A stretch of DNA of 64,000 nt from Candidatus Binatota bacterium (GTDB lineage: Bacteria > Desulfobacterota > Binatia > UBA1149): assembly GCA_012960245.1 (NCBI GenBank), contig DUBO01000056.1, forward strand, positions 104,859-168,858, given 5' to 3'. The notes beneath the pieces were generated by a model. The model was not told the DNA's origin. It saw only the letters and a list, made by a program, of their open reading frames with translations, and did not search any database. Shown here one piece after another: positions 14,952 to 19,689 of this stretch. The position numbers and the translations under genes were made by a program. Every line of letters begins with the position of its first letter. Position 1 is the first letter of the stretch.

Positions 14952-17039
14952 TTACGGGCAGTTCGATCCCCCCGGCGCTTCGAAGGCGGTCACGCCGTCG
15001 TCGCAAATTCCGTGGTAGTCGAAGTTGATCGTTACCCTGCCTGCCCCCGGTAACCCGCCGGCGTTGTTCACGGCCGGGCTGGCGGTAGGCGGCACACAGA
15101 ATATGGCTCCCATGTCGCCGCCGTAGGGGCTGGGGTCACCCGCTGCCTCGATAGGATCGAGGTAGCAGTCACGACCCTGCACCAACGTGCAGTCGCCGCA
15201 GTCGCCTCCGTCACACTCCGAATCGAGCACGTCGCAGTCAGCATCGCTGGAGCAGGGAATAAGACCCTTGCCGCTGGCACGCAGTTGAGCGTCGCAGAAA
15301 GTAACCACGTTAGCAGCATTGGTGCAGATCCCTTCCTGGCCACTGGGGTCGTCCGGGTCAACTCCGCACACCCCGTCTGCGGCGCAGCCGTTGGGGAGGC
15401 GCCCAGCGCCGCCACCGTTGCTGTCGCAGGTGCCGGCACCCAGGGCCGTGCACTCGGCGTCGGAGTTACAACCAACCGTGCTGTCGCCGCTGCATACTGC
15501 ACAGGCGCAGCTGCTGGCTGCCAGCGGTGCGTCGCACTGCGTGCCAAACGGCAAGCTGGCCACTCCGTGGTTCAGGTTGAGCGCGATCGACAGGTCGCTG
15601 ATCTTAGAGCCCGCGTCGGGGGGGCACTCTATGGCACCGGGTCCGAAGTCGGGGTGAGTGGCGTCCACGGTGCAGGCCAGGCCGTCACGGGGCCCGCCGC
15701 TGCAGGTACCGCCCTCACAGGTCGGGCATGGCTTTGTCTGGCCTATGCCCTGGTGCAGGCGCGAAGTCAGCCCGATCTTGCAGTCGCCAGTGCACTCGCC
15801 GGTGATCCCGTCGCAGTTGCAGTCCAGCGGCCCGGTGATCTCGTTGATCACGCAGACCGGGGTGCCCGAGCTCGACAGCGCCAGCGGTGGGCCGAAGAAG
15901 CAGTTGCAGGTGTCGCCGCCGCAATCATCGGCGTCGGCCACGAAGGGCTCGTCGCAGGTGGTGGTCAAGTCGTTATCGCAACGGCAGTAGCCCGGTGACG
16001 GGTCCTCGGTGACCACGCAGTTGGCGCAGTCGCCGTCGCAGGCGGTCAGCACCGCGCTCTGGAAGGCGTCAACGATGTCCACGTCGTGGGCGCCACCGTT
16101 GAATCCCGAATCCAGCTCGGAGTTGGTGAGCTGGGCGCCGTAGCCGGCGTTGAACAGCACGGGGAAGCTGGCCGGACAGTTGCCGGGCAGTTCGAAGGCC
16201 ATGGCCACCGTGCCGCCACCGTTCGTTATAGCCACGTCGGCGGTCACGCAGGCCTGCAACTGGGCAACAGTGTCACCGCAGGAATCGATCGCGTCCAATT
16301 CGGCCTTGGACAGGGCGCAGGCCTTGGCGATACCGTCGTTGGTCTTGCCCGCCGTACTGGCGATTTTTCCCTTGGGATCGGCGCTGCCGCAGACCCAGGA
16401 AATGGGCCCCAGCGACTTGTCGGTGCCCGCCTGGCACTTGCTGCGCTCCTTGCCCACTGTCGCGACCAGCTTGCCCGCGTTCTTGGCAATGGCGCCACGG
16501 CACTTGAGCTGGTCCTTTGACAATCCGGTAGGATTGTCAGGCAGGCCGTTGATCTCTTTAGATGCCATCTCAACCGTGGCGTCGGCCAGGCCGATGAGGC
16601 AATCCGAGAGTTCGGCGAAGTCGTCGATGCCGTCGCCAGCACCGCCGTCGTCGGTGGCCTGGGCCGGTGAGGGACAACGTCCGTACTGGTCCAATACGTT
16701 GGTGAACGGGTTACCAGTGGTCTTGTCAGCGCACTTGTCTTTTGCGCCGCCTATCGAAGAGCGGAGCTTGGCGGCCGCCTTGGTGAGTTTACCCTTGATA
16801 TCGGCCTGGCCCAGGTCGTTGCAGTCGGTGCCCGCACCCACTTTGCCCTTGTCGCGGCTTTTGTGGCAGCCGCCGACGGCCTTCCACGCGGTAGCCACGT
16901 ACTTGGTCACATTCTTGCCAATCGTGCCTCGGCACTTGGCCTCGTCCTTGGTAATCTGGGCATCCGCTGTCGGTACCCCCAACGCCAGTACCAGTGCCGC
17001 GATTGCCGCTGCAGCTACTCCTGTCCATTTGCTTGACAT
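14952..17039 (-). CDS. Secreted Cys-rich protein A (paralogue of the next gene upstream)
   Basis: 695 residues. A signal peptide (MSSKWTGVAAAAIAALVLAL, cleavage near TADA-Q) is followed by two exact C-x21-C-x14-C modules at C36-C58-C73 and C180-C202-C217, each starting K-C-R-G-x-I. The central and C-terminal parts are very Cys- and Asp-rich, for example CSGDSTVGCNSDAEC and CSSDADCDVLDSECDGGDC, which suggests disulfides and perhaps calcium sites. The protein ends FEAPGGSNCP with no anchor. It is collinear with the 696-residue protein at 17352-19442 along its whole length, so the pair arose by tandem duplication. An AGAGGAGAG ribosome site precedes ATG 17039. I recognise no named domain and cannot assign a function; it is probably extracellular or on the cell surface. 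Confidence 0.85.
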   Translation of the reverse strand: MSSKWTGVAAAAIAALVLALGVPTADAQITKDEAKCRGTIGKNVTKYVATAWKAVGGCHKSRDKGKVGAGTDCNDLGQADIKGKLTKAAAKLRSSIGGAKDKCADKTTGNPFTNVLDQYGRCPSPAQATDDGGAGDGIDDFAELSDCLIGLADATVEMASKEINGLPDNPTGLSKDQLKCRGAIAKNAGKLVATVGKERSKCQAGTDKSLGPISWVCGSADPKGKIASTAGKTNDGIAKACALSKAELDAIDSCGDTVAQLQACVTADVAITNGGGTVAMAFELPGNCPASFPVLFNAGYGAQLTNSELDSGFNGGAHDVDIVDAFQSAVLTACDGDCANCVVTEDPSPGYCRCDNDLTTTCDEPFVADADDCGGDTCNCFFGPPLALSSSGTPVCVINEITGPLDCNCDGITGECTGDCKIGLTSRLHQGIGQTKPCPTCEGGTCSGGPRDGLACTVDATHPDFGPGAIECPPDAGSKISDLSIALNLNHGVASLPFGTQCDAPLAASSCACAVCSGDSTVGCNSDAECTALGAGTCDSNGGGAGRLPNGCAADGVCGVDPDDPSGQEGICTNAANVVTFCDAQLRASGKGLIPCSSDADCDVLDSECDGGDCGDCTLVQGRDCYLDPIEAAGDPSPYGGDMGAIFCVPPTASPAVNNAGGLPGAGRVTINFDYHGICDDGVTAFEAPGGSNCP

Positions 17040-17160
17040 GGATTTTCTCTCCTCTCTGTTAATTCCCCATTACCGGGAAGGGTTGTTGTAGTGTGAGCGC
17101 GGGATTCCTGTTTCCGCCGTGTGAGCAGTCTTCTCGGAGACATGGGCACTGCGCGAAACT

Positions 17161-17185
17161 AGTCTATTAGGGGGGGGGGTGTCAA
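17161..17185 (-). promoter_or_regulatory. Candidate promoter with C10 tract after a TTGACA box
   Basis: On the minus strand a perfect TTGACA (17180-17185) is followed directly by ten C residues (17170-17179) and then TAATAGACTAG. The best -10-like hexamer, TAGACT (17161-17166), is only 13 bases from the -35 box, shorter than the usual 16-18. Change in length of the C tract would change this spacing. The transcription start is not proven. Confidence 0.35.
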
Positions 17186-17281
17186 TGGCGAAACCCCCCC
17201 AACAGGGTGGGGAAAGTTGTGGTGAAGGCCTTTTTTTTTGAATTGGCCGCGAGGCGGATCCGATGATCCCTGTTACGCAAA

Positions 17282-17316
17282 GAAAAACCCCCGCGGTGGA
17301 GTAACCACCGCGGGGG
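17282..17316 (-). terminator. Rho-independent terminator of the second tandem secreted-protein gene
   Basis: A perfect 12-bp stem (CCCCCGCGGTGG at 17288-17299 with CCACCGCGGGGG at 17305-17316) and a five-base loop. On the minus strand it is followed by TTTTTCTTTGCG. It lies about 36 bp past the stop codon at 17352. Confidence 0.9.
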
Positions 17317-17351
17317 CCATGTGTCGAGTCGGGGCGCTGTCGATCCGCCAG

Positions 17352-19442
17352 TCAGGGGCAGTTAGATCCGCCCGGTGTCTCAAACTCTGTGACTCCATCA
17401 GGACAGTACCCGGTGAAGTCGAAACGCACGTCCAGGCGACCCGGACCGGGTGAGCCGCCGGCGTTGTTGACCGCCGAGTTGCTGGTGGGGGGCGTGCACC
17501 AGGTTGCAACCAGGCTCGAACTGTTGAGCCCGGGGTCGCCCGAGACAGTGATGGGATCGAGGAAGCAGGATCGCAGGGCAGCACCGCCGCAGTTTCCACA
17601 GTCCCCGCCGTCGCACTCCGGGTCAAGGGCGTCGCAATCAGCGTCGCTGGAGCAGGGTATGTAACCGTCGCCGTTGGCGCGCAGCTGGCCGTCGCAGAAC
17701 TGGCTGGTCGGGCTCGTGTCGCAGACACCGTGCACGCCGTCGCCCGAGTCACTGCACACGCCATCGAGGCAGGCATTGGGAAAGCGCGCCGAGCCGCCGC
17801 CGTTGCTGTCGCAGAGCCCTGCGCCTACGGCCGCGCACTCGGCGTCTGAATTACACGCCACCGTGCTGTCCCCGCTGCACACCGCGCAGGCACAGGCAGT
17901 GGCCGCGAGCGGTGGGTCGCAGGTGAGGTCGAAGCCCAGGGAAGAATTCTCCGTGGTGGTGTTGAGTACCGTCTTTACGGTGCCCGGGATGCGCGTGCCC
18001 GGGTCCGGCTGGCAGTCAAAACTGCTGTTGCCGAAGGTCGGGTGTACGGCGTCTACCGCGCAGGCCAGGCCATCCCGCGGTCCTCCGTTGCAGGTGCCCC
18101 CGTCACAGGTGGGACACGGCTGGGTCACGGTGATGCCCGTGTACACGCTGCTCTCGCCCTGTATCGTCGTGTTGGCCAGGGCCGTGCCGGCGTCGGCGCT
18201 GCCGGTGAGCTCCTCGGCAATCTGGGTCAGTACGCACACCGGTACTCCGGCACTGGACAGGGCAAGGGGTGGTCCGAAACGACAGATGCACTCGTTGCCC
18301 GCGCCACAGTCGTCTGCGTCCTCGGCACTGAAAGGCTCGTCGCAGCTTATGGTGGGGTCGTTGTCGCAGCGGCAGTTACCCATGGACTTGTCTACCGGCA
18401 GTATTGACACTGCGCAGTTGTCGCAGTCCGTGTCACAGGCCAGGTTGGCTTCGCCTACCCAGCCGTCGAGGATGTCGACGCCGTGGGCAAGTCCGGTCCA
18501 GCCCAGGCTGAGCTCGGTGGAGGTGCGCTGCTGGCCAAAGCCGGCCAAGGTGGTCACCTGTACTCCGCTGGGGCAGACGCCGGGAAGCTCGAAGAGCATG
18601 GCTGTCATGCCGTTGCCCACCTTGGCGGCTATGGTGTCCACGAGGCAAGCCTGCAGCTGGGCGGGGGTGTCGCCGCAGGAATCGAGCGCGTCGAGGGTAT
18701 CCTCGTCGCCCAGGCAAGCCTTGGTTATGCCGTCCTTGAACTTCTGACCGGTGCTGGCGATCTTGCCCTTGCCGTCAAAAGAGCCGCAGGTCCAGTCTAT
18801 GTTGCCGCCGGCCTTGTCGGCCCCGGCCTGGCACTTGCCTCGTTCCTTGCTGATGGTTGCCATCAACTTGGCCGTGCTTTTTCCGATCGTGCCCTGGCAC
18901 TTCGCCAAGTCCTTGCTGAGCGAGGCGTGATTCGGGTCACCCATGACCTCGCTGGCCGTGAGGCCGATGAGACTGTCCGAGACCGCGATCAGGCAGTCGG
19001 CCAGTTCAGAAAAATCGTCTATGCCGTCCGTGGCGCCGCCGTCGTCGGTGATTTCACCGGGCGAGGGGCAGCGGCCATAGACTGCCAGTACGTTGGATAG
19101 CGCGTCTCCAGTTGTCTTGTCAGCGCACTTGTCCTTGGCTCCACCCAGCGAATCGCGAATCTTGGAAGCAGCCTTGCCCAGCTTGCCCTTGATGTCGGCT
19201 TGTATGGGGTCGTTGCAGTCAACGCCGGCACCGACCTTGCCCTTGAGCTTGCCCTTGTGACATCCCGCCACGGCTTTCCACGCACCGGCCTGGTACTTGG
19301 ACGTTGTCTTGAAGATCGTGCTGCGGCATTTGGCCTCGTCTTTGGTCATGGCCGCGTGGGCCTCTGACGCGAGCAGGCCCGAGCCGAACAGGCCCGTCAA
19401 CGCGAATAGTGTGGCAAGTGAGAGTGCTTTTATGGTTCTCAT
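17352..19442 (-). CDS. Secreted Cys-rich protein B (paralogue of the gene at 14952-17039)
   Basis: 696 residues. Signal peptide MRTIKALSLATLFALTGLFG, cleavage near SEAHA-A. Two exact C-x21-C-x14-C modules lie at C39-C61-C76 and C182-C204-C219. Between and after them the order of Cys-rich segments matches paralogue A, including YGRCPSP, DDGGxxDGIDDFxEL, CRCDND, CPTC-GGTC-GGPRDGLAC, CAVCSGDSTV-CNSDAEC and the last residues PGGSNCP. Long stretches are identical between the two proteins, but the middle (residues about 380-470) differs. AAGGAG lies 12 bases before ATG 19442. It has its own promoter and terminator, so the two paralogues are expressed separately. Function unknown; no catalytic motif is seen. 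Confidence 0.85.
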   Translation of the reverse strand: MRTIKALSLATLFALTGLFGSGLLASEAHAAMTKDEAKCRSTIFKTTSKYQAGAWKAVAGCHKGKLKGKVGAGVDCNDPIQADIKGKLGKAASKIRDSLGGAKDKCADKTTGDALSNVLAVYGRCPSPGEITDDGGATDGIDDFSELADCLIAVSDSLIGLTASEVMGDPNHASLSKDLAKCQGTIGKSTAKLMATISKERGKCQAGADKAGGNIDWTCGSFDGKGKIASTGQKFKDGITKACLGDEDTLDALDSCGDTPAQLQACLVDTIAAKVGNGMTAMLFELPGVCPSGVQVTTLAGFGQQRTSTELSLGWTGLAHGVDILDGWVGEANLACDTDCDNCAVSILPVDKSMGNCRCDNDPTISCDEPFSAEDADDCGAGNECICRFGPPLALSSAGVPVCVLTQIAEELTGSADAGTALANTTIQGESSVYTGITVTQPCPTCDGGTCNGGPRDGLACAVDAVHPTFGNSSFDCQPDPGTRIPGTVKTVLNTTTENSSLGFDLTCDPPLAATACACAVCSGDSTVACNSDAECAAVGAGLCDSNGGGSARFPNACLDGVCSDSGDGVHGVCDTSPTSQFCDGQLRANGDGYIPCSSDADCDALDPECDGGDCGNCGGAALRSCFLDPITVSGDPGLNSSSLVATWCTPPTSNSAVNNAGGSPGPGRLDVRFDFTGYCPDGVTEFETPGGSNCP

Positions 19443-19509
19443 AACAGTTGATTTCTCCTTAGCTTTTTCGTTGTTGTAAGCCTTGCTTTCGCCGCTTACA
19501 GAAGACGTG

Positions 19510-19536
19510 ATTATGTTCTCGACCCAGCGATGTCAA
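19510..19536 (-). promoter_or_regulatory. Sigma-70-like promoter of the secreted protein B gene
   Basis: Minus strand: TTGACA (19531-19536), 15-base spacer, CATAAT (19510-19515). The -35 is perfect and the -10 matches five of six. It would start transcription near 19503, giving a leader of about 60 bases before ATG 19442. Confidence 0.5.
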
Positions 19537-19689
19537 GGGTTAAGGCGGGCCTTTGAACAGGTTTTCTTACCACGATTTAGACCGGGCAGTGGATCTATCG
19601 GGGCGGGGTCAAGTGGGAAGAAGACGGCTGGCCCAGCTGTCGCTAACAGCCCCCGGGCCGGGCCCTGAATACCTGGCAGAACCGGCCTC

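Follow-up and report, generated by a model that had tools for sequence, protein, structure and literature searches.

The closest described systems to the locus reported here are ordinary sigma-70-type promoters and two phase-variable promoters of Neisseria, i.e., the poly-C promoter of opc (Sarkari et al. 1994, as cited in PMC3447861), in which the gain or loss of a single C (11 to 12) changes expression (PMC3447861), and the phase-variable spacer promoter of porA (van der Ende et al. 1995, as cited in PMC5084427). A locus of similar appearance was analysed in a member of the phylum Binatota (order UBA1149, described in PMC8262859), the host assembly comprising 2.82 Mb in 60 contigs. Within the window (the whole stretch of 64,000 nucleotides that was analysed), a minus-strand TTGACA is directly followed by ten C residues (C10) and preceded by a run of seven G residues, exactly as described in the original prediction, which had proposed a phase-variable promoter. 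No second place in this genome has C10 joined directly to TTGACA. The minus strand around the locus reads 5'-...TTGGGGGGGTTTCGCCATTGACACCCCCCCCCCTAATAGACTAGTTTCGCGCAG..., and the stretch that separates the upstream paralogue's terminator from the ATG of the gene at 14952-17039 reads CTTTCCCCACCCTGTTGGGGGGGTTTCGCCATTGACACCCCCCCCCCTAATAGACTAGTTTCGCGCAG. The comparison covered three species, i.e., this genome and its closest relatives, two genomes of the same genus (G001 and G002) with loci that match the records for UBP10 bacterium UBA1149 and NIOZ-UU50; the region had no match among plasmid records. The following elements were distinguished:

17352-19442, minus strand: upstream paralogue, 59% identical, with its own promoter at 19536-19508
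17318-17286, minus strand: intrinsic terminator belonging to the upstream paralogue, with a stem of 14 pairs and a T run behind it
17231-17239, minus strand: A9 tract, nine A in all three species
17205-17212, minus strand: CCCCACCC, left arm of a palindrome upstream of the -35 box, possible operator
17200-17194, minus strand: G7 run, right arm of the palindrome (partner 17205-17212), CCCACCC-N4-GGGGGGG kept in three species
17185-17180, minus strand: -35 box TTGACA, 6/6 match to the consensus, invariant in three species
17179-17170, minus strand: C10 tract, bases 1-10 of the 18-bp spacer, CCACCCCCAC in both relatives
17161-17156, minus strand: -10 box TAGTTT, pattern TANNNT with an 18-bp spacer, TAGGTT/TAGATT in the relatives, pattern enriched genome-wide, homologue TTGACA-18-TAGCAT
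17149-17150, minus strand: predicted transcription start, 6-7 nt past the -10 box; the block conserved in three species stops at 17149
17049-17052, minus strand: ribosome binding site GGAG, 9 nt ahead of the ATG (at 17039)
14952-17039, minus strand: gene with this promoter, secreted Cys-rich protein of 695 aa, orthologues 87% and 85% identical

Gene order around the promoter was kept in both relatives. The aligned spacers read TTGACA CCCCCCCCCC TAATAGAC TAGTTT in this genome, TTGACA CCACCCCCAC TAATAGAC TAGGTT in G001, and TTGACA CCACCCCCAC CAGTAGAC TAGATT in G002. Neither relative has a pure C10: CCACCCCCAC stands in its place and is continued by (T/C)A, the longest C run there being five. The interrupted form is likely ancestral because the A's at two positions are shared by both relatives, and C10 would then be a private change of this genome by two A-to-C changes. 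Spacer length is identical in the three species and the alignment is free of gaps over 68 columns (17213 to 17146), 53 of which are identical throughout; an invariant length, which the original prediction itself had named, for many isolates, as speaking against a switch, was therefore found between species. GACTAG and TTCGCGCAG are invariant, and conservation reaches as far as CGCGCAG, right past the predicted start, before the sequences diverge. Taken alone, the 68-column block gave a max-window permutation p of 0.10 because the nearby terminator region is conserved too, so that the weight of the argument lies with the specific boxes and not with the block. The original description holds in that TTGACA is a real, conserved -35 box and that the C tract is placed between it and the -10 box.

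Promoter rules of this genome were derived from 337 upstream regions in samples totalling 864 kb, with the C10 locus left out. TTGACA (with up to one mismatch) was paired with TANNNT 8 times at a spacing of 17 and 11 times at 18 (about 1.3 expected at each from shuffles), i.e., 19 observed versus 2.6 expected for TTGAC(A)-N17/18-TANNNT combined, and exact TTGACA accounted for three pairs at 17 bp and three at 18 bp (about 0.1 expected). These two spacings were the only strongly enriched ones, nearly all others being near background, and TAGNNT was common among the matches (TAGGTT, TAGCTT, TAGGCT). Among homologues of about 43-45% identity, TTGACA-18-TAGCAT is present in this genome and in G002, and TTGACA-18-TATTTT in G003 (another family). 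From the spacing statistics and the boxes of the homologues, the best -10 is TAGTTT at 18 bp; a point against it is a match to TATAAT at only 3/6 positions, albeit the same three that are used in TANNNT. The weak -10-like words at 10-13 bases on which the original prediction had relied do exist (TAATAG at spacing 10, directly after C10, and TAGACT at spacing 13), but with TAGTTT, which had been missed, they are superfluous. A default consensus promoter scan of 14.8-20.0 kb returned no promoter because its -10 rule is stricter than TANNNT.

The protein encoded at 14952-17039 has a signal-peptide-like start and matched no family in Pfam; in this genome its gene has many relatives, full or partial, and forms a family with them. 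The upstream paralogue has, as previously stated, TTGACA (19536-19531) and CATAAT (19515-19510) separated by 15 bp; TARTCA, located 17 bp from the same TTGACA and conserved in two relatives, may be an alternative -10. The motif ACAACAAC is common to the 5' UTRs of gene and paralogue (17040-17351 and 19443-19689) and rare in other upstream regions (4 matches in the sample). The A9 tract at 17231-17239 lies about 45 bp upstream of the -35 box.

Taken together, the gene at 14952-17039 is very probably driven by an ordinary conserved sigma-70-type promoter, TTGACA-N18-TAGTTT, with a C-rich 18-bp spacer. The sequence itself, the conserved -35 box, the conserved TANNNT at the spacing preferred by this genome, and the fixed spacer length are observed; promoter activity, transcription start, and operator are predicted from these features. 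Sigma-70-type initiation would take place near 17149-17150 and leave roughly 110 nt of 5' UTR. The C tract would form the upstream part of a spacer that keeps its length across the genus but not its exact bases; here, C10 arose from CCACCCCCAC by two A-to-C changes. The conserved C-rich/G-rich palindrome CCCACCC-N4-G7 just upstream of the -35 box may be a regulator site. Pairing of G7 with C10, as had been suggested, would be impossible in the mRNA of this gene because both runs lie upstream of the predicted start.

Among the alternatives, it is very unlikely that sequencing or assembly error accounts for part of the pure C10, with interruptions like those of the relatives in the actual sequence. 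Compared with the relatives, the plus strand shows T-to-G changes beside a G, a kind of error that two-colour Illumina chemistry is reported to make (PMC13218037), and poly-C junk adjoins N gaps and contig ends in related assemblies; however, this error has a low per-read frequency and would be expected to lose out in the consensus, and neither gaps nor contig ends are near the C10 site. The poly-C in question is long and messy (L073, L085, L086, and L100) and looks like sequencing or assembly junk.

C/G tracts were also surveyed in this genome and across the genus. Distinct tracts of at least ten C numbered 17 in the 2.82 Mb genome, mostly intergenic, and C/G runs of at least 10 were observed twice in a 28.8 kb intergenic sample versus 0.27 expected under a second-order Markov model; C10 is uncommon, yet not unique in this genome. 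In intergenic DNA (864 kb sample), C-first palindromes of the form C5-N3-6-G5 were found 42 times versus 1.65 expected, while enrichment of G-first palindromes was far weaker (9 versus 2.25 expected). The excess of C/G runs is partly tied to these C-first palindromes, which may be terminators or operators; a few of them stand shortly upstream of a TTGAC word. A CCCCCC-GATC-GGGGGG palindrome (L036 1501-1521, G000:C40 near 10832) upstream of another homologue of the gene is conserved in both relatives, its flanking C run varying from 6 to 10. Two distant C tracts (L022 and L034) have flanks that resemble each other by eye, AAAATTGT..ATCCTCA..CCGGTTGGGTG, and might belong to a dispersed repeat. 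Tracts that are long in this genome have shorter or interrupted orthologous tracts in the relatives. Since this first set had been chosen as long in this genome, a reverse test was started from the tracts of the relatives and gave the same kind of outcome. Elsewhere in the genus, C/G tracts lengthen, shorten, or gain interruptions in both directions, and tract turnover is therefore general.

A phase-variable promoter, in which slippage in C10 alters the -35/-10 spacing and modulates expression in this one species in the manner of opc and porA, is very unlikely. For it speak the presence of a pure C10 (a homopolymer of at least nine in or next to a promoter) between the boxes of a real promoter, the opc precedent, in which a single C more or less suffices, and the C/G tract length differences seen between species of the genus at other sites. 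Between species, though, the proposal is unsupported, as spacer length is equal in three of them and the homopolymer is absent from two. A set of such loci is also lacking, the C10 at 17179-17170 being the only one of 23 own C/G tracts of at least nine bases checked that has a promoter-like spacer position. Furthermore, slippage from C10 to C9 would give a 17-bp spacer, the other favoured spacing, which makes a mild change likelier than an on/off effect. With the site equally long but interrupted by As in the two related species, there is no sign of C10 as an evolved on/off switch. It is highly improbable that a recent purification of the C-rich spacer to C10 gave this one Binatota species a new slippage-prone promoter for a secreted Cys-rich protein, which, if true, would be a contingency locus at birth. 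The idea that tracts of at least ten C mark promoters of secreted proteins was rejected, as the 22 other tracts checked in this genome lie outside promoter-like spacers and orthologous tracts are shorter or interrupted.

The promoter favoured here illustrates how an eye-catching homopolymer next to a perfect -35 box may be no more than the spacer of an ordinary promoter, and how a comparison with two sister species suffices to recognise this. As a by-product, an empirical promoter model was obtained for an uncultured Binatota lineage (TTGACN-N17/18-TANNNT, often TAGNNT). Compared with known systems, the locus shares with opc and porA a homopolymer within the promoter, located in the spacer in the case of porA, and differs from both in that length does not vary across three species, the tract is interrupted in sister species, and the genome has no wider set of such promoters. 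With ordinary sigma-70-type promoters it shares the boxes, the 17-18 bp spacing, and the position ahead of a gene that has a ribosome binding site, whereas its spacer is unusually C-rich and a pure C10 in this genome only.
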